This document shows, piece after piece, positions 6,695 through 32,778 of a stretch of 35,596 nt of DNA (the first letter of the stretch is position 1; every line of letters begins with the position of its first letter). Source of the DNA: a virus; the IMG/VR virus record IMGVR_UViG_3300009149_000131, positions 1 to 35,596 of that record. One strand, written 5' to 3'. The notes under the pieces are model-generated. The model saw nothing but the letters and a program-made list of their open reading frames with translations. It was not told the origin of the DNA and searched no databases. The translations under genes were made by a program, and so were the position numbers.

Positions 6695-7263
6695 AAAATT
6701 TAATTATAATCTTCCTGGCGATTTCTTTTATTTCCTGCAATCCTTTTATTACAAAAGATCTTCGAAGGAAAAATAAATGCAATAGAAAACTTCAAAGGGT
6801 TGTTAATAAATGCCCTGAACTTTTAAGCAACGATACGATTCGCGACACGGTTTCAATTTTGGTTCCTGAAGTAAGGATTGATTCGTTTATTACGATCGTA
6901 AAGGACACCGCGGAAATTGATTCCCTGGTTTCTTTGATCCAGGATCCAGGCGTTCAGGAAATTATTAAACAATATATTTACAGATACAAACCTTTTAACG
7001 ATACTATAACGCAAATAATAGACGGTTATACGTTCCGATTTTATGTCGAAGGGCAAAATATACGTTACGAAGTAGATAAGCCCGCAGAACTCATTAAAAA
7101 GCCAATTGAAGTAATTATTCCAATTGTTAAACCCGTTGAATTAACAACGATCGAAAAAGCCCTGGATTTCTTTTCCCGTTTTTGGTGGTGGTTTGTTATT
7201 GGTTTAATCTTTTTTATCCTGATCCGAATATTCGGAAAAACAATTAAAAATTTACTTTTATAA
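6691..7263 (+). CDS. Unimolecular spanin (u-spanin)
   Basis: The protein has 190 aa with the two anchors that define u-spanins. At the N-terminus is a lipoprotein signal peptide with lipobox-like FISC at Cys16. At the C-terminus is a Trp-rich membrane segment at about 163-180 (FWWWFVIGLIFFILIRIF) with a basic tail. Between them lie about 145 periplasmic residues, including a Pro/Ile/Val-rich stretch (KKPIEVIIPIVKPVE). This would link outer and inner membranes and fuse them in the last step of Gram-negative lysis, as described for phage T1 gp11. It overlaps the endolysin gene by 4 bp. It is the last late gene before repeat array A. Confidence 0.8.
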   Translation: MKNLIIIFLAISFISCNPFITKDLRRKNKCNRKLQRVVNKCPELLSNDTIRDTVSILVPEVRIDSFITIVKDTAEIDSLVSLIQDPGVQEIIKQYIYRYKPFNDTITQIIDGYTFRFYVEGQNIRYEVDKPAELIKKPIEVIIPIVKPVELTTIEKALDFFSRFWWWFVIGLIFFILIRIFGKTIKNLLL

Positions 7264-7270
7264 ATTCAAT

Positions 7271-7490
7271 CGTTGACACGTTTTGAACTTTACCGAAAAC
7301 GAACTTCCTTCAAAGTTGTTCGTTGTTCGGTTTTAAACTTCGCCGAAAAACTACTTTGCGCAAAATCAATCGTTGATCGGTTTTTGATTCGGTCGTTTTT
7401 GAACTTCTTAAAAAATCAATCGTTGCCCGTTTTTTTCTTTGATCGTTTTTGAACTTCCTTAAAAATCAATCCTTCGCCAATATTCCAGGC
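7271..7490 (+). repeat. Array A: 50-bp-period tandem repeats
   Basis: Four imperfect 50-bp units start at 7271, 7321, 7371 and 7421, with a degenerate fifth at 7471. Each begins cgttg, continues with a t-rich ggtttt block and gaactt, and most end aaaatcaat. Unit junctions carry dyads such as ATCAA-TCG-TTGAT (7366-7378). The 50-bp period is not a multiple of three and stops occur in all frames, so it is not coding. The reverse complement of unit 7321-7370 matches 19274-19323 in array B at roughly four of five positions. It fills the gap between the last late gene and the first early promoter. Confidence 0.9.
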
Positions 7491-7627: not shown

Positions 7628-8005
7628 ATGAAAACTTTAAAAGACTTTACAAACGATCAACAATTAAACGTGGAAACTGAAATTAAATTTCAAGTTAATC
7701 AAACGCAAGGAAATTCGGTTGACGCTTACGGAACGGGGGATTATGTTTCTTATTGCGAATACGAAGTTAAACGTAAACAAATGATTTGCGACATACCAAA
7801 GCCGCAGGGCGGAACGAAAGATTCGGAAATTTGTTTTTCTGACGAACTTTTGGTTATTCAAAACAACGAAGGCGTTTGTAAATTCGGAACGTTTTCGAAT
7901 CCAAAATTGGCGGATCTATTTTGCAAAGCATTAAACGAAACGGATCAGGCGGAATTATTAGATCTTATTAATTCGGATCCTTACAAATCAAATATTATAC
8001 TTTAA
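7628..8005 (+). CDS. Unknown early protein, first gene of operon 1
   Basis: The protein has 125 aa, soluble and acidic toward the C-terminus, and no family is recognised. It has four cysteines (YVSYCEYE, MICDIP, SEICFS, GVCKF) plus one near the end. The start is the first ATG after promoter P1 and the common leader. The gene is followed by a GGGGG/CCCCC hairpin and two small genes. As the promoter-proximal gene of an early operon it may be a host-takeover protein, but nothing in the sequence shows a specific function. Confidence 0.75.
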   Translation: MKTLKDFTNDQQLNVETEIKFQVNQTQGNSVDAYGTGDYVSYCEYEVKRKQMICDIPKPQGGTKDSEICFSDELLVIQNNEGVCKFGTFSNPKLADLFCKALNETDQAELLDLINSDPYKSNIIL

Positions 8006-19566: not shown

Positions 19567-21078
19567 TTGGATCAACCGAAAATAATAAGACCACAGGAAG
19601 GTTACCAACTTCAGGCGCTTAGTTCTTCCGCTGATATTTTGATAGGCGGGGGCGCTGCGGGCGCGGGAAAAACCTTTTGTTTATTATTGGATCCTTTGCG
19701 TTACAATAATAATCCTGATTTCGGGGCGGTTATCTTCAGGCGAACAACCCCGCAAATTACAAACCCTGGGGCGTTATGGGACGAATCAAATAAAATTTAT
19801 CCCTTCGTTGGGGCTTCGTCAAATAAAACCGCGTTATCCTGGACGTTTAAAAGCGGGGCGCGAATTAAATTTTCACATTTAGAATACGAAAAAAATGTTT
19901 ACGACTGGCAGGGATCGCAAATTGCTTATATTGGATTTGACGAATTAACCCATTTTTCGAAGTTCAGTTTCTTTTATTTATTGTCGCGGAACCGATCGAC
20001 TTCAGGGGTTCGCCCTTGCGTTCGGGCGACCTGCAATCCTGATCCCGATTCCTGGGTTTCCGATTTGATTTCCTGGTGGATCGGGGAAGACGGGTTTCCG
20101 ATTGCTGAACGTTCGGGCGTTCTTCGTTACTTCGCAAAGGACGGCGAATCATTCATTTGGGGGGATTCAAAAAAAGAATGTATTGAAAAAGCCAGTTATT
20201 TTATTGATCCTTTGGTTGAAAAATCAGGGCAGGCGGCAGAAAATTTTATTAAATCGATTACCTTCGTTGGGGGATCCGTTTACGAAAACAAAGAATTATT
20301 AAACGTTGATCCTGGATATTTGGCAAACCTGGCAGCGCAGGACGACGCAAGCAAATTGCAATTACTCGAAGGAAATTGGAAAGTTGCGTTAAACCCTTCG
20401 GACGTTTATAATTATACAAATTTTAAAGACATATTTACAAACGATTTTGTTGAAAAAGGAAGCGGGGCGATAACGGTTGACGCTGCAATTTTCGGGGCGG
20501 ATAAATTAATTATTTGTTACTTCGAAGGGCGGCGCCTGGAAGATTTGGTTTTAATGGATAAAAGTTCGGGGAAGGATATAATCGACAAAATTCGAAAGTT
20601 TCAAAGCGAATATAAGGTTCCGAATTCGCGGGTTGTTTATGACGCGAACGGCGTCGGGGCTTTTATTGGCGGAAAGGAAACGGGGTTTATTCCTGGGGCG
20701 GTTGCCTTTGATAATAACGGAAAAGCAATCCAAACGAAAAAGGATCTTCGAAACTTCAGGAACTTAAAAGCGCAATGTTATTATTTATCAGGGGACGCGG
20801 TTAACAATGCGGAATATTTTATTTCCGAACGGGTTCAAAATTTAATGTATTCCGATAAAATGACAATCCGACAAAGATTTTTATTTGAACGAAAAGCAAT
20901 CAAAAAAGAAGTTCGAAAAAACGAAGAACCTTTTAACCTGATCCAAAAAAAGGAAATGAAATCAAAATATTTAGGGGGCGAATCCCCCGATTTACTGGAC
21001 GCTTTTATGATGAATGAATTCTTTTATTTGGTTCCGAAAAGAACGGCGCCAAAATCAACGGTTGTTCGAAGAAAATAA
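19567..21078 (+). CDS. terL: Terminase large subunit
   Basis: The protein has 503 aa and is the packaging ATPase/nuclease. Walker A is GGAAGAGKT at residues 28-36. Walker B is IAYIGFDE at 119-126 with the catalytic Glu. A coupling-type segment VRPCVRATCNPDPD follows. The C-terminal RNase H-like nuclease has acidic motifs GAITVDAAIFGADK, VVYDANGVGA and SPDLLDAFMM. The start is TTG 19567; no ATG lies nearby and the first residues (DQPKIIRPQEGYQLQ) are the usual TerL N-terminus. It opens the late block, separated from small terminase by array B. Confidence 0.93.
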   Translation: MDQPKIIRPQEGYQLQALSSSADILIGGGAAGAGKTFCLLLDPLRYNNNPDFGAVIFRRTTPQITNPGALWDESNKIYPFVGASSNKTALSWTFKSGARIKFSHLEYEKNVYDWQGSQIAYIGFDELTHFSKFSFFYLLSRNRSTSGVRPCVRATCNPDPDSWVSDLISWWIGEDGFPIAERSGVLRYFAKDGESFIWGDSKKECIEKASYFIDPLVEKSGQAAENFIKSITFVGGSVYENKELLNVDPGYLANLAAQDDASKLQLLEGNWKVALNPSDVYNYTNFKDIFTNDFVEKGSGAITVDAAIFGADKLIICYFEGRRLEDLVLMDKSSGKDIIDKIRKFQSEYKVPNSRVVYDANGVGAFIGGKETGFIPGAVAFDNNGKAIQTKKDLRNFRNLKAQCYYLSGDAVNNAEYFISERVQNLMYSDKMTIRQRFLFERKAIKKEVRKNEEPFNLIQKKEMKSKYLGGESPDLLDAFMMNEFFYLVPKRTAPKSTVVRRK

Positions 21079-21082
21079 AATT

Positions 21083-21871
21083 ATGATAAAATTCACTTCA
21101 GGAAAAAGGAAGAATAAAAAATTTTATAGTTGCCCGACTTCCTGGGGCGAAATAACTTTTAAACAATGGAAAGATTTAAACGCTTCGGATAATGAATTGG
21201 AAATGATTTCAATTTTAACGGGGATCACTTCAGAAGCGATTAATTTAATTTCTGAAGGTAGTTTATTAAAATTATCTTTGGCGATCGGATTCGTTGCGAA
21301 ACCGCTTCAAATGGAAAATTACGCGCCGCCTTCAGAATTTAATTATAAACAAAACCGAAAAATTCCTTTTGTCGAAGATATTCGCGAAAAAAATTACGGT
21401 CAAAAAATATTCCTTCAGCATTTATTAATTGAAAACGAAAAGGACGAAGCGAAAATTATTGAAGAATCCGTTTTAATTTACGCGCAACCGTTTATCGATA
21501 ATTCCGAATTTAATTTGGATCGGGTTATTGAATTAAAAAATTCTTTGGATAACGTTTTTTTTGTAGATTCGTATTCGATTGCAATCGATTACGCGAATCA
21601 ACTTCGGGAAATTGTAGAAACGGAAGCAAAACAATTAAACGTTCAACCAACGAACGAACAAAAGGCGGCGGGGGTTGATATGTTTTTAAAATTTGGGGTT
21701 ATGAATACGGTTAAAGCCCTGGCAGAAAATAACGTTTTGAATTATGAAAAGGTTTTAAGAATAGAGTATAATACGGTTTTTATTCATTTATTAATGAAGA
21801 AAACCGAAGGAATTTATCAGGACAATTACAGAAAAATATTAGATCAAAAACATAAAAGAAGTAGAAAATGA
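21083..21871 (+). CDS. Unknown late protein downstream of large terminase
   Basis: The protein has 262 aa from ATG 21083 (ataaaattATG), preferred to an in-frame start inside the terminase gene. It contains CPTSWGEITFKQWKDLNASD, a pattern found in hypothetical proteins of Bacteroidetes phage tail regions. Long helices follow (AIDYANQLREIVETEAKQLN). It could be a tail-assembly or packaging accessory protein. It overlaps the next gene by 4 bp. Confidence 0.7.
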   Translation: MIKFTSGKRKNKKFYSCPTSWGEITFKQWKDLNASDNELEMISILTGITSEAINLISEGSLLKLSLAIGFVAKPLQMENYAPPSEFNYKQNRKIPFVEDIREKNYGQKIFLQHLLIENEKDEAKIIEESVLIYAQPFIDNSEFNLDRVIELKNSLDNVFFVDSYSIAIDYANQLREIVETEAKQLNVQPTNEQKAAGVDMFLKFGVMNTVKALAENNVLNYEKVLRIEYNTVFIHLLMKKTEGIYQDNYRKILDQKHKRSRK

Positions 21872-22341
21872 TAATTTCAATAGTTCAAACGCTTGTTAAT
21901 CAATTAAACGTTAGCGGATTAACTTACGGATTCGGACACGGGGCGCAATATTGGGCGAACCTATTAAATGACGAATTCGATTTTGGCGACTTCAAAGGGA
22001 TCGTTTATTTAGATCAACCAATTACAACCGATTACCAATTAACCGCGGGCGGATATATTGGCGAATTTTATAATATAAGTTTGTTTTTTATGTTAAAATC
22101 CGAATTAGATTGGTTACCCGCCGAACACGATTTTAATTGTATTGAACCCGCAAACAATGCGATTCGTCAATTTATATCGATATGCCAGGCGGCAAACGAA
22201 TTAATCGACGAAGTTTCGGATCCTTCCGCCGTTGAATTTATCAACTTATTAGACGTTAACGTTTCGGGGAAAATATTAACAATCAAATTAAAACCGCGAA
22301 TTAATGCGGGCGTTTGTATTCCGATCCCGCCAATACCTTAA
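21868..22341 (+). CDS. Probable tail terminator/completion protein
   Basis: The protein has 157 aa, an alpha/beta protein (TLVNQLNVSGLTYGFGHGAQ, GIVYLDQPITTDYQLTAGGY), with a strand-rich end (GKILTIKLKPRINAGVCIPI). Size and place just before the HK97 gp10-like gene fit a tail terminator or neck component, by analogy only. It overlaps the upstream gene by 4 bp (ATGA). Confidence 0.5.
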   Translation: MIISIVQTLVNQLNVSGLTYGFGHGAQYWANLLNDEFDFGDFKGIVYLDQPITTDYQLTAGGYIGEFYNISLFFMLKSELDWLPAEHDFNCIEPANNAIRQFISICQAANELIDEVSDPSAVEFINLLDVNVSGKILTIKLKPRINAGVCIPIPPIP

Positions 22342-22344
22342 AAA

Positions 22345-22800
22345 ATGGCTGAAAGTTTAAAAGAAATAATAAAACAATTCGGGGAAAAATTAACCGAAGA
22401 TATTAAAAAAGCGATTCCCGTTGCAACGGGGCAAACGCGGGATTCCGTAAACATAGAATATACTAAAACGGGTTTTATTATTCGGGGCGGCGAACAAATC
22501 GGGGCGATAATTGACGGAAGGAAACCCAGTCAAAACGGAAAAAAGCCAGGGCAATTAAAGCCAATGATTTTAGAATGGATTAAAGCGAAGCGAATTCGCC
22601 CGCGCGAATCTTCAATGACTGAAGAAACGTTGGCTTTTTTAATTTCGCGATCGATTCACGAAAAAGGTTATCCAGGAAAGGGAAATATTTTTGCGAAAGT
22701 AATAACGGATTCCCGAATTAATTCGTTAACACAATCGTTATTAAATTTTGAAACGATCGCGATTCAATCAAAAGTAATTAAAGAATTTAAATTTAAATAA
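22345..22800 (+). CDS. HK97 gp10-like neck/tail completion protein
   Basis: The protein has 151 aa. An N-terminal helix (SLKEIIKQFGEKLTEDIKKA) is followed by IPVATGQTRDSVNIEYTKTG, matching the hallmark 'P-x-x-T-G-x-x-R/D-S' segment of HK97 gp10-like proteins. RGGEQIGAIIDGRKPSQNGK fits the family too. These proteins help join head and tail in siphoviruses. The neighbours are tail genes. Confidence 0.72.
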   Translation: MAESLKEIIKQFGEKLTEDIKKAIPVATGQTRDSVNIEYTKTGFIIRGGEQIGAIIDGRKPSQNGKKPGQLKPMILEWIKAKRIRPRESSMTEETLAFLISRSIHEKGYPGKGNIFAKVITDSRINSLTQSLLNFETIAIQSKVIKEFKFK

Positions 22801-22801
22801 A

Positions 22802-23899
22802 ATGGGCTTAAACGTTACCGAATACCCGCAAAGAATTGTCGATAATAACCCGTTATTCGTTTCGAAGTGGTCGGCAATTAATCATTCGATGTTATTTAAA
22901 ATGGAACGCCAGGACTACCCCGTTTTTATTTTTTATAATCCCGTTACCTTTGTTTTGGTTGCGGTTATTACGGTCGGAACCGTTATCGATTCCCCTTTGC
23001 CTGGCGATAAAATTTACATTGAAACGCCGAACGCTTCAGGAACTTTTATCCTGGCGGCTTACGGGTTCCCGAATGTTTTCACAATGGAACCGAAAACCTG
23101 GACGGGCGGAACTGGCGTTTCGGGATTTATGAATTTACTTTCGCGTAAAAATTATTTTATACGAACAAACGTTTACGGAATAAATGAAAATAATCAGTAT
23201 GAATTAATAGGTCAAAATAGAAACAAACCCGATTCAGCGGGGCGGGCTTCGGTTGACGTTTCCGCATTTCTTAAAAATATTGTAGGATATGAAGATAAAT
23301 TTCAGTATAACATATTAAACGAAAAAGACGAAACCCTGGGTTCGCCTTATAATATTACTTATTCCGAAAACTGGGAATTTTACGAAGGCGCTTTTTCGGG
23401 ACTATCGACAACCCTTTTAAGGTTCGGGGTAAATTCAGCAAAACAGATTCAGGATCTTTACGGGCAAAATATGGGGGTTTACGTTCCGTTTTGGATCAAC
23501 CTATTAACGCCCGTTCCGTTCGCTAAATTTTTAAGCGACTTCGAATCGCCGACTTACTTTCCAGGATTTCCGTTTTCTTTATCTTTTATTTATAGTGAAT
23601 ATTTGGTTGGAATTCAAACGTTTAGACACCAGGAAAATTTCGACGTAAACGGAAATTCAGTCGCAATAATTGCACCGATTAAATTAAGCAACGGAAACGC
23701 GCAGGAAGTTAATCGTTTGTTAATTGATTACGGATTTCCTTCGATAATAAAATTCGCTGAAGTTTGGTTGGAAACTGAAGGGGTAATTGATTGCGTTGAA
23801 TACGTTCAACCTGGTTACGTTCAAATTGGTTATGTTGAATCAATTTGCGGGCTTCCGATTATTTCGTTACCGCCTGAATTGGGAAATCCAACTTCGTAA
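22802..23899 (+). CDS. Tail structural protein
   Basis: The protein has 365 aa, strongly beta-rich, with many aromatic residues and Gly/Pro turns (FPNVFTMEPKTWTGGTGVSG, WEFYEGAFSGLSTTLLRFGV). It has no catalytic motif. Size and position between neck protein and the large tail protein make it a tail-tube, distal-tail or baseplate candidate. Starts 1 bp after the neck gene. I do not recognise the exact family. Confidence 0.6.
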   Translation: MGLNVTEYPQRIVDNNPLFVSKWSAINHSMLFKMERQDYPVFIFYNPVTFVLVAVITVGTVIDSPLPGDKIYIETPNASGTFILAAYGFPNVFTMEPKTWTGGTGVSGFMNLLSRKNYFIRTNVYGINENNQYELIGQNRNKPDSAGRASVDVSAFLKNIVGYEDKFQYNILNEKDETLGSPYNITYSENWEFYEGAFSGLSTTLLRFGVNSAKQIQDLYGQNMGVYVPFWINLLTPVPFAKFLSDFESPTYFPGFPFSLSFIYSEYLVGIQTFRHQENFDVNGNSVAIIAPIKLSNGNAQEVNRLLIDYGFPSIIKFAEVWLETEGVIDCVEYVQPGYVQIGYVESICGLPIISLPPELGNPTS

Positions 23900-23909
23900 A
23901 ATAAACAAA

Positions 23910-24386
23910 ATGAGAATAACAGAAAAGAAAAAAATTAAAGTAGATCACGAATGTAAGGATTTCCCTATTTATTTAACCTGGCTTAATAGTTTGGGGGGTT
24001 ATTCTTATTGGCTTTTTTTTAAAGAACATTCGGAATTAACAAAAACTTCTTTAGAAAATCAATATATTAAATCAATTGAAGATTTAGAAAACGCAATTTC
24101 CACAAATGACATAACGGGAAAATCCGCAGAACATACAATTCAAATCGGGGGAAGAATTCAGGCGGAAGATATGGGGGGAATTACGGGGTTATACGAATCC
24201 CCAAAAGTTGAAAGGTTAATGAATCCTGACACCTGGGAAACGGACGGAACGGGGGGGACGCCCGCGCCAAAATGGCAAAGGGTAATTATTAAACCTGGAT
24301 CGATTACGATTTTAAAAACTGGAATTGAATTCCTTACTATAAAAATGACTTTGGAATTACCTTTTATTAATACCCAAAAGGAATAA
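23910..24386 (+). CDS. Tail-region protein
   Basis: The protein has 158 aa from ATG 23910 (taaacaaaATG). An upstream extension in the same frame overlaps the preceding gene and is unlikely. It contains FPIYLTWLNSLGGYSYWLFF, the sort of segment seen in tail proteins that pack against the tube or tip, and a beta-rich C-terminus (GSITILKTGIEFLTIKMTLE). It lies 6 bp before the 1059-aa tail gene. The function is inferred only as tail structure. Confidence 0.6.
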   Translation: MRITEKKKIKVDHECKDFPIYLTWLNSLGGYSYWLFFKEHSELTKTSLENQYIKSIEDLENAISTNDITGKSAEHTIQIGGRIQAEDMGGITGLYESPKVERLMNPDTWETDGTGGTPAPKWQRVIIKPGSITILKTGIEFLTIKMTLELPFINTQKE

Positions 24387-24391
24387 AAAAA

Positions 24392-27300
24392 ATGAGTTTA
24401 GACGTTTACATAAACGATCAATTGTTAGAATTAAATTCGAATAAGGGGATCGGTTTAACTTTTCAAATCGGTTCGATTTTGAATCCAGGAAATCGCGCGG
24501 GTAATTTATCGAATAATTTTAAGGTTCCGAAGACGCGTCAAAATACGGAAATATTGGAAAACCTTTCGAATATTAATTCGACGACAAATATTCCCTATCA
24601 AAGAAATACGGGGAAAATTGTTCAGGACGGAATCGAAATTTTTCCTGACGGTTTCGCAATCGTTGATTCGACGGGATCCGATTATTCAATAACTATTTAT
24701 TCGAGTAACGTTTCGTTTTTTGATTTAATTAAAGGGGCGAATATTTCCGATTTAGATCTTTCGGATCTTTGCGAAGAATGGACGGTTGCAAATGTTATCG
24801 CAACTTTTAATAATACGGACGGATTTATTTACCCGATTATTGACTGGGGAATTATCGGCGTTCAGTTATTAGATAATACAACTTTACAAAATTCAAACGC
24901 TTTAATTCCCGTTTTATTCCTGAAGGAAGTATTAAACCGAATCGCAACTTCGGTCGGATATGAAATTAAAGGAACTTTTCCTTTGTCGGATCAATGGGAT
25001 CGTTTACTTTTAACCCCGCAACAATTCGGATTTACTGAATTAGAACAATCAACAAACACGGGGGTTGCGCAGGACGTTGTTACGGTTCCGTTAACAACGG
25101 TAATAGTTACCGCAAATCATTGCGCACCGATAACGCCGCTTCCTTACTTTTTAAATATTCCTTTAGTTTATCAGGATATTAACGGGGCAAATTTTAATCA
25201 AATAACGGGGGCGGATTTTACCCCTGATAATACATATTTCGGACAATTCAACGTTAACGCGCAGGGCTTTTTTAACGCGCCTTTCATTCCTTCAAAGGGG
25301 GAATTAACAATTCAGACGGGAACCCTTTACAATGACTTTAAGGAAGCCAATATAAACGATGATTATATTTGTTGGATCAATCGAACCCAGGGATTTAATG
25401 ACGCTAACGTTTGGATAAAAAATTTAAATAATAGTTCTTCCCCTTTATTAATTGCGAATTCGGGATTTAACGATTTTGGGGTTTGTTCAATAACCGAAAC
25501 AAACGGCGGGTTCGTTGCTTATTCAATTACAACTTCAGGACAAACGGACGTTTATTTGTATGACATTAATTTGGCAACCTTAACGCAAATTTATTTAAAT
25601 AATTTAGCGACTGGGATCGTTGATTTCCTGAAGGTTTGGAACGGAAAAGTTATTATTCAGGATCGCGATATTAACGGCGGTTTATTTGTTTACGATATTT
25701 TAACCGCAACCCTTAAAACGGTTATCCTGGGAAATGTAACGGGGGCAGAACTTGACGGGAACGGGGATTTTGTAGTTTATGAAAATTTTAATACAAATGA
25801 TATTATTATTTGGGATTACGCAACCGCAACGAATACGGTAATTGAAAACGGGGGCGCTTTTTCGGGATTGAATACCTGCCACGTTTTGGGCGATTATGCT
25901 ACTTATTGGGACACTTCTTTGGATAAAATGGTTTCCTTTAAAATTTCAACTTTAACGAAAGTTGATATATTAACGGACGCGGGGACAACGGTTCAGGGAT
26001 CCGCGCGGACAAAAACAACCCTGGCGTTTGCGAAACAATCAGGGCAATTATATTTTTATGACTTAATTACTGACACTTTAACGACGCCCCCAACGCAAAC
26101 AAATTGCACGGTTCAGGGGGTTGGAAACGTTCCTGATCGTTACATTGATATAAACGAAAATTTTATTGTTTATCGTTACGATTCAACCGATCAAATAAAC
26201 GCTTACGAAATTTTAACGGGGATTTCCTTTGTCGTTTCATTAGAAACCGATTCGATTTTTTGGGTTAAAATAGGGCAATGTTTGAACGTTGTAACCCATA
26301 CGATAGGCGGGGCGGTTGATTTAATTAAACAAAATATTATAACAACTGGGGCGCCCGTTTTATTCGATACGATCGCAAGCGTTAACAATGTCGTTTCAAT
26401 GAATCGCGCAATCGGAAACGATCGGGTTATTTTTACGAACGATACGGGTTTAAGTTCTTCGCCTTTGGATCGGGTTTCAATTATTCAGCCAGTCGTTTTT
26501 CCAATTTCCGCAAAAATTGAATTAGTAATAAAGGAAAACGGAATTCCAGTTTACACGGCAAACGATGTTTTAACGGTAACCGATGTTAATAACCCTTACA
26601 ATATAACAATAAGCCCAGGCGTTATAATTGTTAATTCGGGGGACGTTTATTCGGTCGAATTATTTATTGAAGGATCCCGCGAAGAAACGATTGATTATCT
26701 TTTGGAATATTCTTTGGCGATTAGTTCGTTTTCTTTTATTGCTTATTGTTCTATTCCTTACGGGGCAAAATTAAGATTAGAAAACTTTTACGATTTAGAT
26801 CAGGAAATCCCATTTAAGGACGTTATGAATATGTATTCCTTAACGATTCAGACGGACGAAGTTTCGAAACAAATATTTTTAACACCTTTAGACGAATTAA
26901 ATAATAATTTATCGAAGGCGATAAACTGGAATGATAAAATTAATTTATCCCGCGCGCCCGTTGTTAAATATAAAATAGGAAGTTACGCGCAAAAAAATTA
27001 TTTAAATTATAAGACTGAAGATGGGGTTCCTGAAAATTTAGGAAGGGGATCGTTTGAAATTAACGATTATCAACTTCCGTTAACAAAAGATATTATAACT
27101 TTAAATTCGGCGGCGGTTGAATCGGAATTTCGTTTGTTAAATGAAGTTACCCCGACAATACATTTTCAATCCGACGAAGGCGATTGTTTCGATAAAAAGG
27201 CGCCGCGAATTTTATTATTGGATAAAATATCAAAACCGATTTCCTGGAAAAATACCAGGAACGGGGACGTTGGAAATTCAACAATCCTTCCGTTATCTTA

Positions 27301-27571
27301 TTTTAATAAAAACACAAAAACCGACAACCTGGATTTCCCTTCTTTAATTTCGGAAAATTATAACGTTTTAACTGGGATTATGAATCAGGTAAAATTTATT
27401 TCAGCTAATTTTCGTTTAACTGAAGTCGATATTTCGAACCTGGATTTTACGATTCCCGTTTTTCTGGACGTTCATTATTTTGAAATACATATTAACGGTT
27501 ATTTTTACATAAATAAAATTTCTAATTTTAAGAAAAACGAACCGACAAAAGTTGATTTAATACGATTATAA
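24392..27571 (+). CDS. Large tail-tip protein with predicted beta-propeller insertion
   Basis: The protein has 1059 aa. The N-terminal ~220 residues (VYINDQLLELNSNKGIGLTF, NNFKVPKTRQNTEIL) and C-terminal ~350 residues (YGAKLRLENFYDLDQEIPFK, KYKIGSYAQKNYLNYKTEDG) look like tail-tip or baseplate hub modules. Between about 310 and 690 lie roughly eight repeats of about 45 residues with the form 'hydrophobic-strand, 8-15 residues, V-x-x-Y/F/W-D, T/A-x-T/L'. Examples are TDVYLYDINLATLTQI, GGLFVYDILTATLKTV, DIIIWDYATATNTVI and GQLYFYDLITDTLTT. That periodicity suggests a TolB/WD-like beta-propeller. The propeller may bind a host surface ligand. It precedes the tape measure gene. Confidence 0.68.
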   Translation: MSLDVYINDQLLELNSNKGIGLTFQIGSILNPGNRAGNLSNNFKVPKTRQNTEILENLSNINSTTNIPYQRNTGKIVQDGIEIFPDGFAIVDSTGSDYSITIYSSNVSFFDLIKGANISDLDLSDLCEEWTVANVIATFNNTDGFIYPIIDWGIIGVQLLDNTTLQNSNALIPVLFLKEVLNRIATSVGYEIKGTFPLSDQWDRLLLTPQQFGFTELEQSTNTGVAQDVVTVPLTTVIVTANHCAPITPLPYFLNIPLVYQDINGANFNQITGADFTPDNTYFGQFNVNAQGFFNAPFIPSKGELTIQTGTLYNDFKEANINDDYICWINRTQGFNDANVWIKNLNNSSSPLLIANSGFNDFGVCSITETNGGFVAYSITTSGQTDVYLYDINLATLTQIYLNNLATGIVDFLKVWNGKVIIQDRDINGGLFVYDILTATLKTVILGNVTGAELDGNGDFVVYENFNTNDIIIWDYATATNTVIENGGAFSGLNTCHVLGDYATYWDTSLDKMVSFKISTLTKVDILTDAGTTVQGSARTKTTLAFAKQSGQLYFYDLITDTLTTPPTQTNCTVQGVGNVPDRYIDINENFIVYRYDSTDQINAYEILTGISFVVSLETDSIFWVKIGQCLNVVTHTIGGAVDLIKQNIITTGAPVLFDTIASVNNVVSMNRAIGNDRVIFTNDTGLSSSPLDRVSIIQPVVFPISAKIELVIKENGIPVYTANDVLTVTDVNNPYNITISPGVIIVNSGDVYSVELFIEGSREETIDYLLEYSLAISSFSFIAYCSIPYGAKLRLENFYDLDQEIPFKDVMNMYSLTIQTDEVSKQIFLTPLDELNNNLSKAINWNDKINLSRAPVVKYKIGSYAQKNYLNYKTEDGVPENLGRGSFEINDYQLPLTKDIITLNSAAVESEFRLLNEVTPTIHFQSDEGDCFDKKAPRILLLDKISKPISWKNTRNGDVGNSTILPLSYFNKNTKTDNLDFPSLISENYNVLTGIMNQVKFISANFRLTEVDISNLDFTIPVFLDVHYFEIHINGYFYINKISNFKKNEPTKVDLIRL

Positions 27572-27572
27572 A

Positions 27573-30155
27573 ATGGCAAAAAAAGAAACGATAATTATTG
27601 AACTGGATTTCGATACTTCAGACTTTACAAAAGACGCGGCAAAACTTAACAAAGAAATTTCCGATTTAAATAACCAACAAAAGGAATTAAAAAAATCAGG
27701 GGAAGAAGGTTCGATTCAATACCAAAAAAACACGGAAGCGTTAAGGGCAAATAAAAAAGAATTGAACGAAACGAATAAGACAATCGATCAATTAACCACG
27801 GCGAACAAATCAACCGCAGGAAGTAACGAACAACTTCGCGCGCAATTGTCAATCCTTACAAAAGAATATAACGGGCTTTCTGAAGCGGAAAGAACCAACG
27901 GGGCGCGCGGTAAAGAATTAAACGCGCAGATCAACCAAACAACGGACACGTTAAAAGAAAATGAGGAAGGAATCGGGGACAACCGAAGATCCGTTGGCGA
28001 CTATGGAAAAGCATTATCGGGAACCCCTTTCGGTTCTTTTATTGGCGGTTTAAAATCAATGGGGGCGGCTTTAATAGCGAACCCGATCGGTTTAGTTATT
28101 ACCGCAATTGTTGTCGCTTTAAAGGCTTTATACGAAGCATTCCAAACAACCGAAGACGGGGAAAATAAAACGGCAAAGGCAACCGCGATAATTTCAACAA
28201 TCTTTTCGAAATTACTTGACGCGTTGGAACCGTTGGCGTCTTTTATTGTTGACGTCCTGGGGGCTGCCTTTGAATACTTATCGAAACAAGTCGAAGACGC
28301 CGCGAAGGCAATTGAAGCGGGGTTGGAATTCTTCGGATTCGGGGACGCCGCCGCAGGGCTTCGGGAATATAGGGGCGAAATTGAAGCAACCGCAAAGGCA
28401 GTCGCGCAAATTGCAGACGATCGCGCGGAAGCGGATAAACTGGAAAGGGGTTTGATCGTTGAAAGCGCAAAGGCGCAAAGGGCGATCGCGGAAGCCAGGG
28501 GGCAGGTTAACGACAAAGAAAACGTTTCCGCTGCGGATCGAAAAGCAGCATTAGAAGAAGCCGCAACGTTAACGGACGAACTGGCAGCAAAGCAGGAAGC
28601 CGCCGCAAAATTAAGATTTGAAGCGTTAAAACTGGAAAACACTTTGACGAATTCCAACAAAGAAGCGTTAACCGCCGAAGCCGAAGCCGAAGCGGATTTA
28701 ATAAATATACAATCGCAACGGGCGAATTTACAAAAGGGTTTATTATCGGATCGAAAAAAGGTAAATGCAGAAATTGCGAAGGCAAACGCGGACGCGGTTA
28801 AAGCGGCGCAGGACGCGCAAAAAAGGGAAATTGATTCCCAAAAATTACAAATACAATTATTTATAGAATCGCAAGGGATCAGGGCGAAAACCCTTGACGA
28901 ACAATTGAAACTTTCGGAACAAATCGCAGCGAAGGAAGTTGAAATTTTAAAAAAGGAATTAGCCGCCAAAATTATTTCTCAGGAAGAATACGAACTGGCA
29001 ATTTTGCAAATCCAAAACGAACAATTATTAAAACAAGCTGAAGCGGTCGCAGAAAACGCGCAACGTGAATTAGATATAATTATTGAAGCGAATTCGCAAA
29101 AATTAGAAGCGAACCAATTTTTAACGGACGAATTATTTATTCAGGAACAAGAAAAAAACGCGCGGATCCTGGAAGCCCAATTGGAATTCGAAGCGTTAAG
29201 ATTAGAACAAGGATTGACAACCGAACAAGAATACCAGGACGCCGTCCGCGGTATTAAAGAAGAAAACGCGGAAGTTGACAAAGCCCTGGCGGAAGAAAAA
29301 GCCGCAGCGGACAACGAACAAAGAATTGTCGATTTAGAAAATCAAAGGGAAATCGATATATTAAATCGGGAAGACGAATTCGCATTAAGGCAGGCGGATT
29401 TAGAAATTCAAAAGGCGCAGGAACTCGCGAACGCCGAAACAACGGGCGCGGATAAAGCATTGATTGAAGAAAAATTCGCGAAGTTTTCAACCAAAATAGA
29501 AAAAGAACAAAGGAAGGCGCAGGTCGGCGAAGCCCTGGCAGCGTTTGACGCAATCGCAGGACTGGCAGCGGGTAACGCTGAAGCCGCAAAAGCGATCGCA
29601 ATTGCGCAGGCAATTATTAACGGATTTCAAGGGGTTACCGCGGTTTTGGCTGCGCAATCTACAATCCCCGAACCTTTCGGTTCAATATTAAAAGGGGTTA
29701 CCGCTGCGGCAATCGGGGCAACGGCTTTAATTAATGTCAATAAAATTAGATCGACACCCGTTCCAAAAAAAGCAGCGAAGGGGGGCGTCTTTGGCGGAAA
29801 CCTACATTCCCAGGGCGGAAATAAAGGATATTTTCAGGACGGAACCGTTGTCGAAGTTGAACGCGGGGAATTGTTCGCGGTTGTCAATAGAAATTCAACG
29901 GGAATGTTAAACAATTTAAGCGCCTTAAACGAAGCGGGCGGGGGCGTTTCGTTCGGAAGGGGCGGAACGAAATCGTTTCTTCAGGACGGGGGAATTGCAA
30001 TTGACAACGTTTCGAATCAAATCGATTCGGAAATTGAATCCAGTTTGCAAATCGTTGCGGCGATTGAATCATTACCGCCGCCCGTTGTAATTGTTCAGGA
30101 TATTAACGAAGTTCAGGGGGCAACCGTTGCGGTTGAACAACGGGCGATAATTTAA
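27573..30155 (+). CDS. Tape measure protein
   Basis: At 860 aa this is the longest typical tail-length protein here. The N-terminal ~150 residues are coiled coil (KLNKEISDLNNQQKELKKSG). Hydrophobic stretches occur at about 163-190 (MGAALIANPIGLVITAIVVA) and about 205-235 (LASFIVDVLGAAFEYLSKQV), typical of the segments ejected into the host membrane. A very long Ala/Glu/Lys/Gln coiled coil follows to about 665. The C-terminus is Gly-rich (KKAAKGGVFGGNLHSQGGNK), a common tape-measure ending. Starts 1 bp after the tip gene. The long opposite-strand frame at 28001-28969 is a composition artefact. Confidence 0.92.
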   Translation: MAKKETIIIELDFDTSDFTKDAAKLNKEISDLNNQQKELKKSGEEGSIQYQKNTEALRANKKELNETNKTIDQLTTANKSTAGSNEQLRAQLSILTKEYNGLSEAERTNGARGKELNAQINQTTDTLKENEEGIGDNRRSVGDYGKALSGTPFGSFIGGLKSMGAALIANPIGLVITAIVVALKALYEAFQTTEDGENKTAKATAIISTIFSKLLDALEPLASFIVDVLGAAFEYLSKQVEDAAKAIEAGLEFFGFGDAAAGLREYRGEIEATAKAVAQIADDRAEADKLERGLIVESAKAQRAIAEARGQVNDKENVSAADRKAALEEAATLTDELAAKQEAAAKLRFEALKLENTLTNSNKEALTAEAEAEADLINIQSQRANLQKGLLSDRKKVNAEIAKANADAVKAAQDAQKREIDSQKLQIQLFIESQGIRAKTLDEQLKLSEQIAAKEVEILKKELAAKIISQEEYELAILQIQNEQLLKQAEAVAENAQRELDIIIEANSQKLEANQFLTDELFIQEQEKNARILEAQLEFEALRLEQGLTTEQEYQDAVRGIKEENAEVDKALAEEKAAADNEQRIVDLENQREIDILNREDEFALRQADLEIQKAQELANAETTGADKALIEEKFAKFSTKIEKEQRKAQVGEALAAFDAIAGLAAGNAEAAKAIAIAQAIINGFQGVTAVLAAQSTIPEPFGSILKGVTAAAIGATALINVNKIRSTPVPKKAAKGGVFGGNLHSQGGNKGYFQDGTVVEVERGELFAVVNRNSTGMLNNLSALNEAGGGVSFGRGGTKSFLQDGGIAIDNVSNQIDSEIESSLQIVAAIESLPPPVVIVQDINEVQGATVAVEQRAII

Positions 30156-31182: not shown

Positions 31183-31221
31183 TATTATATTTAATTCTTA
31201 GTTTTGTTTAAAACAAATGAT

Positions 31222-32778
31222 ATGTTAAATCCCGATTCAATCACAATAACAAAAGAACAGAACGATAACGTTACTATTTTAATTCAGGACGAAAAATCGT
31301 TTAATCTTTTATCCGAATCGTATCTTACTAAAATGATTGCTTCGGTAATTGTTAGGGGAAAGGGCGGCGAATTATTATACGAATTCTTTTTTACTGAAGT
31401 AAAACACGTTATTAGAAAGGACGGAACGGACGTTTCAATTACCGATAACGATATTTTATTTAATGAATTAAATCAATTTTTTTTTTTCATAAATAACCAG
31501 GGCGGCGGCGGCGGCTTAACGAATTTACCCGTTGGAAACTTTGTTTTTGTTAACCCTTTAGGGGACGACGGGACGGGGGTTCGCGAGGATTACGCATTTC
31601 CTTTTCTTACTTTGAACGCTGCAAAAAACGCAGCAATTGCAGGCGATACGATTTTAGTTTTCGGGGGAACTTATAACGAAGCGAATTCGCTTCAAAAGGA
31701 CGGGGTAAAATGGCACTTTATAGGGAAGCCGATATTAAATTTATTTGCTGCGTCCGTTTGGAATGACGATGCAGGGTTGACCGATATTCAGATTCAAGGG
31801 GACGCGATCGTTAATCACTTTGGAAGTATGCACGTTATTGAAATAAGCCAGGGTTCAACTGTTAACGCTAACTTTCACAAAGTAACGGCGAACGGCTTCG
31901 CGATTTTTTGGTTGGGAACGGGCAGCGGGATTATAAACGTTGCGACAAAAGTAGAAGTTACTTTGGTTAATCGTTGTATTCAATTTGAAGATCAATCGAA
32001 TTACGTTATTAATATTGACGACATTTTTTGTAATTCCTTTGTCGGGGGCGTTTCAAACGCAATAAATCATAGAGGTTCAAACACGGGGACAAACATTATT
32101 AACGCGCGAATCATTCGAAGCGAAAGGGCGTTTGGTTCAACGATAACAACCGCGCCAAACCAAACGGGGAAAACGACAATAAACATTTCGGATAAAATTT
32201 CATTCGACCAGGCAACGACAATCCCGATTCAACAAGATTCGGCGGTTGCGCACCTTTCAGGGTTGTTAATTATTAACGGAAATATTGACGGTGGGAAAGG
32301 AAAAGCAATTGATATTCAAACGCAATTCCCAACGGTCGGGGCGCTTAAAACTTTAGAACATAACGGGAACGCAATAAATGACGGAACGGAACCGCTTATT
32401 TATCACGGGGCGGACGCGGGTTTTTGGGCTGCGGGAAAATCAACGTTAAAATTAAACGGAAAATATACTTCAGCGAACGACATAACAATTGAAAACGGCG
32501 GCGTTCCTGGGAATAAATTAACGATAAAGGGAAGGATTGAAAACCAAGGGACGGGCGTTGCAACCGCGGGCGTAAATATTCAGGCGGTCGGAACGACTAT
32601 TTTCGAAGATACGGTTATTATAATGGATAATTCGGCAGGTTTGCGCGAATGTATTTCCGCACCCGTTCCGCAAAACGTTAAATTATTTCATAGCGTAGGA
32701 ACGAACAAAAACGCTTCGGCGAATATTACTAATTTAATAGCGGCGAATAATTTAACCGTTGACGCTGAATACGAATAA
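31222..32778 (+). CDS. Tail fibre with right-handed beta-helix
   Basis: The protein has 518 aa from ATG 31222 (aaacaaatgatATG). An N-terminal ~90-residue attachment domain (SITITKEQNDNVTILIQDEK) is followed by a Gly-rich hinge (NNQGGGGGLTN) at about 92-102. From about 115 the pattern is that of a parallel beta-helix: FVNPLGDDGTGVREDYAFPF, LNAAKNAAIAGDTILVFGGT, repeated Asn/Ile/Gly turns (VINIDDIFCNSFVGG) and no long helix. Such fibres bind or degrade host surface polysaccharide. No clear catalytic pair is visible. A run of 11 T occurs at 31487-31497 just before the hinge. Confidence 0.8.
   Translation: MLNPDSITITKEQNDNVTILIQDEKSFNLLSESYLTKMIASVIVRGKGGELLYEFFFTEVKHVIRKDGTDVSITDNDILFNELNQFFFFINNQGGGGGLTNLPVGNFVFVNPLGDDGTGVREDYAFPFLTLNAAKNAAIAGDTILVFGGTYNEANSLQKDGVKWHFIGKPILNLFAASVWNDDAGLTDIQIQGDAIVNHFGSMHVIEISQGSTVNANFHKVTANGFAIFWLGTGSGIINVATKVEVTLVNRCIQFEDQSNYVINIDDIFCNSFVGGVSNAINHRGSNTGTNIINARIIRSERAFGSTITTAPNQTGKTTINISDKISFDQATTIPIQQDSAVAHLSGLLIINGNIDGGKGKAIDIQTQFPTVGALKTLEHNGNAINDGTEPLIYHGADAGFWAAGKSTLKLNGKYTSANDITIENGGVPGNKLTIKGRIENQGTGVATAGVNIQAVGTTIFEDTVIIMDNSAGLRECISAPVPQNVKLFHSVGTNKNASANITNLIAANNLTVDAEYE

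Follow-up and report, generated by a model that had tools for sequence, protein, structure and literature searches.

The hub gene and its neighbors

The stretch of DNA analyzed here (the window) is a virus record of 35,596 bases that contains genes for a terminase, a portal, a tape measure protein and other phage proteins. The gene of interest (24392..27571) encodes a protein of 1059 amino acids. Based on the open reading frame, family alignments and the predicted fold, we describe it as a tail hub protein with an inserted repeat domain. This gene, its parts, and the neighboring tail genes described below are all on the plus strand.

Directly 3' of the hub gene is the gene for the tape measure protein (27573..30155), which was recognized by matches to phrog_3336 and phrog_20660 (tail length tape measure protein) and starts right past the hub stop codon. 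This adjacency is kept in many relatives. On the 5' side of the hub gene are two tail-module genes (22802..24386), encoding proteins of 365 and 199 amino acids. As listed, their open reading frames share ~110 bases, and the second probably begins further downstream. Both genes are homologous and syntenic in the relative L008, where the encoded proteins are 30% and 37% identical to those of the window, respectively, and in other relatives. The module shared with other Bacteroidota phages comprises five upstream genes (encoding 285, 157, 151, 365, and 199 amino acids), the hub gene, and the tape measure gene. All five upstream genes are present in L008, in the same order. The order of hub before tape measure (19567-30155 in the window), which is not that of lambda-like phages, is also found in phages phi46:1 and TCUEAP1 and in many contigs.

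Two other features of the window were noted. A 50-base direct repeat, present in 2.2 copies (7362-7471), lies between the end of an open reading frame at 7263 and the start of another at 7628. Further along, 31204-32778 encodes a protein of 524 amino acids whose sequence ('FVNPLGDDGTG...FPFLTLNAAKNAAIAGDTILVFGGTYNEA') has the look of a parallel beta-helix and which is a candidate for a separate tail spike or adhesin. This protein matched nothing above threshold in Pfam or PHROG. We considered whether it might be a second propeller and rejected this, as the match to Kelch was weak and the sequence reads as a beta-helix.

The flanking parts of the protein have the predicted fold of a tail hub

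We found, by fold comparison of a predicted structure, that the two ends of the protein correspond to a tail hub of the gp27 / Mu gp44 / Tal type. The N-terminal hub part (residues 1-213; 24392..25030) is homologous in all relatives. The C-terminal hub part (residues 807-1059; 26810..27568) was delimited by family alignments and the model, and a match to phrog_33698 covers residues 782-1031. We modeled the protein with AlphaFold, using an alignment of 28 rows. The pLDDT was mostly 75-95 over residues 1-213 and mostly 80-95 over residues 800-1059. The best 42 matches of this model in the PDB were hubs of phages, contractile-injection systems or type VI secretion systems (VgrG), with Z scores of 8.4-14.6. 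Each match spanned approximately 230-330 aligned residues at 3.8-6.0 Å. The top matches were to the hubs of phages 7-7-1 (Z 14.6), Milano (14.4), and Mu (14.0). Matches to phage 80alpha (11.8), T4 gp27 (10.3), and T5 (9.8) were further down. Foldseek on its own gave E values of 1.8e-4 to the Milano hub and 3.0e-4 to the MuSo2 hub. Residues 1-107 also matched a tail-tube fold (9cb9, PhiTE tail). The preliminary description of this DNA had called the sequence on both sides of the repeats hub-like, and the fold comparison bears this out.

Likeness to the known hubs extends beyond the predicted fold of residues 1-213 and 807-1059, for which structures of MuSo2 (3CDD), Mu (1WRU), a Listeria protein (3GS9), 80alpha (6V8I) and the T5 tip (7ZHJ) gave Z scores of 9.2-13.5 to the model. 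As with those hubs, the gene is beside that of the tape measure protein, and one relative, from phi46:1, is annotated as a virion protein. In contrast, sequence identity to the known hubs is only ~6-10%, the window's gene is 5' rather than 3' of the tape measure gene, and ~400 residues are inserted in the middle domain.

The virus is a long-tailed phage of Bacteroidota-type bacteria. A search with the whole protein identified proteins of Elizabethkingia phage TCUEAP1 and Cellulophaga phage phi46:1, each matching in two pieces with 36-37% query coverage. The phi46:1 relative (gp20) is annotated in its record as a structural (virion) protein identified by MS/MS. Additional relatives were found in viral contigs, in one Bacteroidales genome, and in 10/395 and 19/395 Bacteroidota genomes, in draws that overlap. 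An initial alignment, made from three full-length proteins, put the C-terminal half in the wrong place and was discarded in favor of alignments of the core.

The repeat domain is inserted in the middle domain of the hub

We found that the block of repeats is a true insertion into a loop of the middle domain. The middle domain, whose sequence is suggestive of a beta-sandwich, is split into a first half (residues 214-310; 25031..25321) and a second half (residues 715-806; 26534..26809). The inserted domain lies between them, at approximately residues 311-714 (25322..26533), and is slightly bigger than the 310-690 estimated earlier. We built a family profile from the relatives, leaving out the window's own protein, and compared it to the protein with and without the insertion. 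The intact protein matched in two pieces, residues 1-292 (200.0 bits) and 730-1059 (201.8 bits). When residues 311-714 were removed in silico, there was a single match of 415.9 bits that covered the full profile. Many nearby cut points scored within 1-3 bits of one another, and the left boundary is therefore good to ~15 residues and the right boundary to ~30.

The length of the middle region gave the same picture. The spacer between the N- and C-terminal hub parts is 601 residues in the window's protein, compared to 30-273 residues in 36 relatives, a set that includes a few near-duplicates. The first 30 of these spanned the whole range (median 197), and the six others had spacers of 175-230 residues. 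None of the 36 (0/36) had insertion-like sequence. The empty-site test and this comparison of lengths agree with the earlier proposal that the repeats are inserted in a tail-tip protein.

The inserted domain itself had no relatives among the viral contigs, only chance matches to phage and plasmid records, and no match to the PDB by sequence. Because no second record with the insertion was found, the block might have been mis-joined into the hub gene during assembly. We consider such a chimera exceedingly improbable: all 1059 codons are in one unbroken frame that is shared by both halves of the hub, and the G+C content of the block (0.38) is within the range across the phage's genes (0.32-0.45).

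Relatives of the hub protein carry decorations elsewhere, and these differ from one relative to another. A relative in a Bacteroidales genome (L014, 3115-6762) is a protein of 1216 amino acids with an N-terminal right-handed beta-helix (Pfam Beta_helix, E 2.2e-14) and, next to it, an adaptor that is also found in the relative L005. Several relatives have C-terminal extensions of approximately 70-230 residues. Viral proteins of similar structure are annotated with BACON or Fib_succ_major domains. The shortest relative (L010, 6001-7599; 533 amino acids) is almost without a middle domain, which suggests that this domain, too, is a module that can be replaced.

The insertion contains eight repeat units

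The preliminary description had proposed about eight repeats of about 45 residues in residues 310-690 of the 1059-residue open reading frame (25319-26461). Repeat profile analysis upheld this: we found eight units of 39-49 residues in residues 322-659 (25355..26368). The units start at residues 322, 371, 417, 457, 499, 540, 588, and 627, giving spacings of 49, 46, 40, 42, 41, 48, and 39 residues. Each unit contains one strand resembling 'NGDFVVY', one resembling 'IIIWDY', and a third strand that is rich in T.

Two comparisons to shuffled sequences indicated that the repeats are real. For residues 306-700, the best off-diagonal self-alignment scored 97, compared to 43 ± 9.4 (maximum 72) in 60 shuffles. 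We also made profiles from seven units and scored each on the eighth, with 300 shuffles for comparison. This test is somewhat favored, since the boundaries of the units were set by eye. Six of the eight units were recognized, with the native score reached in 0, 0, 0, 3, 5, and 7 of the 300 shuffles. Units 5 (39/300) and 8 (90/300) were without support on their own. A partial unit at approximately residues 677-715 ('NDRVIFTND...RVSIIQP'), judging from its sequence, could complete a ninth blade if paired with an N-terminal strand.

The inserted module is probably a beta-propeller

The inserted module is probably a closed beta-propeller with eight, perhaps nine, four-stranded blades of the TolB / prolyl-oligopeptidase type. 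This reading comes from the length of the units, their strand pattern, and two unbiased searches in which propellers were the best real matches. In one search, the sole match of the repeat block in 395 Bacteroidota genomes was to one blade from the propeller of a prolyl oligopeptidase. This match was in register, at 48% over 40 residues (E 4.7e-4 per genome, not significant over 395 genomes). In the other, a profile of the blades matched a TolB protein among 118 genomes (E 0.008 per genome, not significant over 118 genomes). What counts about these two weak matches is that both show the predicted fold, not their significance. We arrived at the names prolyl oligopeptidase and TolB by reading the translated loci; they are not database assignments. 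A second match of the blade profile (in genome G022) was to a stretch of 39 codons containing a stop and was dismissed as noise.

The structural predictions were less informative in this region. The pLDDT of the insert was 25-56 (low confidence) in the 28-row model, and a model from the single sequence (pLDDT 29.5) was discarded. Neither AlphaFold model, both of low confidence in the insert, showed a closed ring. Hairpins were predicted in the better-modeled parts. Below the hubs, and with the model poor in the insert, Foldseek gave non-significant matches to many propeller proteins, including endosialidase, the clathrin terminal domain, DPP IV, eIF2A, sortilin, and prolyl oligopeptidases. None of the Pfam propeller models, including PD40, matched the insert, and the blade profile had only non-significant matches in the PDB. 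Matches of the repeats to Pfam VraX (16.7 bits, cut-off 25) and to a PHROG minor-tail family (E 0.061) were below the usable level and were set aside.

The lack of ring closure in the models and of a match to a curated propeller profile might also indicate that the repeats form some other all-beta fold, such as an open array of hairpins, a beta-solenoid, or a string of Ig-like domains. We think that this is quite unlikely. The units are of 39-49 residues with predicted hairpins, and the proteins found in both weak sequence matches are true propellers, aligned in register.

A possible role in host recognition

The explanation that we favor, and consider reasonably likely, is that the gene encodes the tail hub of a Bacteroidota phage with an inserted probable propeller that binds a ligand on the host surface. 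As the fold comparison indicates, the N- and C-terminal parts make up the conserved hub, which sits where the tail tube ends. Hubs of this fold form trimers at the end of the tail, hold the C-terminus of the tape measure protein, and can open upon contact with the host (PMC7291167). With one module per subunit, the trimer would project three propellers around the tail tip. They would bind a host surface ligand, probably a glycan, and could add affinity or trigger the hub. The protein would in effect be an 'evolved Tal', with a propeller in place of the usual carbohydrate-binding module.

We infer host recognition by analogy to the carbohydrate-binding modules inserted in evolved Dit and Tal, from the propeller of phage phi11, and from the other decorations in relatives of the hub. 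The modules in Dit and Tal mediate binding to hosts (PMC7291167). In the phi11 receptor-binding protein, the propeller platform has a cavity into which GlcNAc could fit (PMC4901313). The window's module did not match the carbohydrate-binding module families in Pfam. We counted the gene order against the favored explanation: in the usual order, tape measure-Dit-Tal, the Tal gene comes after the tape measure gene (PMC7291167), whereas the hub gene in the window is 5' of it. A further proposal is that the propeller is the primary receptor-binding domain within the trimeric hub, and that ligand binding by the three propellers is relayed directly to the plug holding the tape measure protein, triggering release of DNA without a separate receptor-binding protein. 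We regard this as unlikely.

Propellers are common platforms for protein-protein contacts, and the phage encodes a separate beta-helix-like candidate adhesin (31204-32778), so the hub need not bind the receptor. Both points would fit a propeller that is a structural or docking module, anchoring another tail protein (for example, the beta-helix protein) and not contacting the host. This seems to us fairly unlikely, if less so than the primary-receptor proposal. The hub insertions in the literature are carbohydrate-binding (PMC7291167). In addition, relatives without the insertion keep the same module of neighboring genes, which argues that the conserved tail has no need of the propeller.

Propeller hydrolases, lyases, and sialidases occur in phage tails, and the non-significant Foldseek matches include endosialidases and a tetrasaccharide-bound LOR107 enzyme. 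The propeller might thus be enzymatic and cleave glycans of the capsule or surface, but we judge this to be very unlikely. The module matched no enzyme family in Pfam, reading through the repeats revealed neither an Asp-box nor a catalytic signature, and there were no relatives of the insert to show conserved active-site residues.

Comparison to known tail-tip modules

Phage adhesins with propellers and tail hubs with inserted binding modules are both already known. We found no propeller inserted in a gp27-like hub in the literature that we searched, which covers part of the field. Among the closest parallels to the favored explanation, binding by an inserted propeller, are the evolved Dit and Tal proteins of Lactobacillus, lactococcal, and streptococcal phages (PMC7291167). 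These also have an extra module inside a tail-tip structural protein, patchy among relatives. In contrast to those proteins, the module described here consists of propeller-type repeats and is not a BppA-like carbohydrate-binding module, the phage is of Bacteroidota, and carbohydrate binding is only putative.

The phi11 receptor-binding protein Gp45 (PMC4901313) is similar, as it is a tail-tip adhesin of a siphophage whose propeller has been proposed to hold a host sugar. However, it has five blades and is a separate trimeric protein around the core of the baseplate, whereas the propeller proposed here is in the central hub and has at least eight units. PhiKZ gp131C and PRD1 P2, both named in the same paper (PMC4901313), likewise have propellers in phage adhesion or baseplate proteins. 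Unlike the window's module, these are terminal or head domains of other proteins and not insertions in a hub.

To our knowledge, little is understood at the molecular level about how Bacteroidota phages bind their receptors. If the inserted module is a propeller that does bind the host, then the 'evolved Tal' principle, in which a conserved hub at the tail tip accepts an exchangeable binding module, would widen from the carbohydrate-binding modules of phages of Gram-positive bacteria to a propeller in a Bacteroidota phage. The loop in the middle domain of the hub would then be a place to seek determinants of host range in this group of phages.
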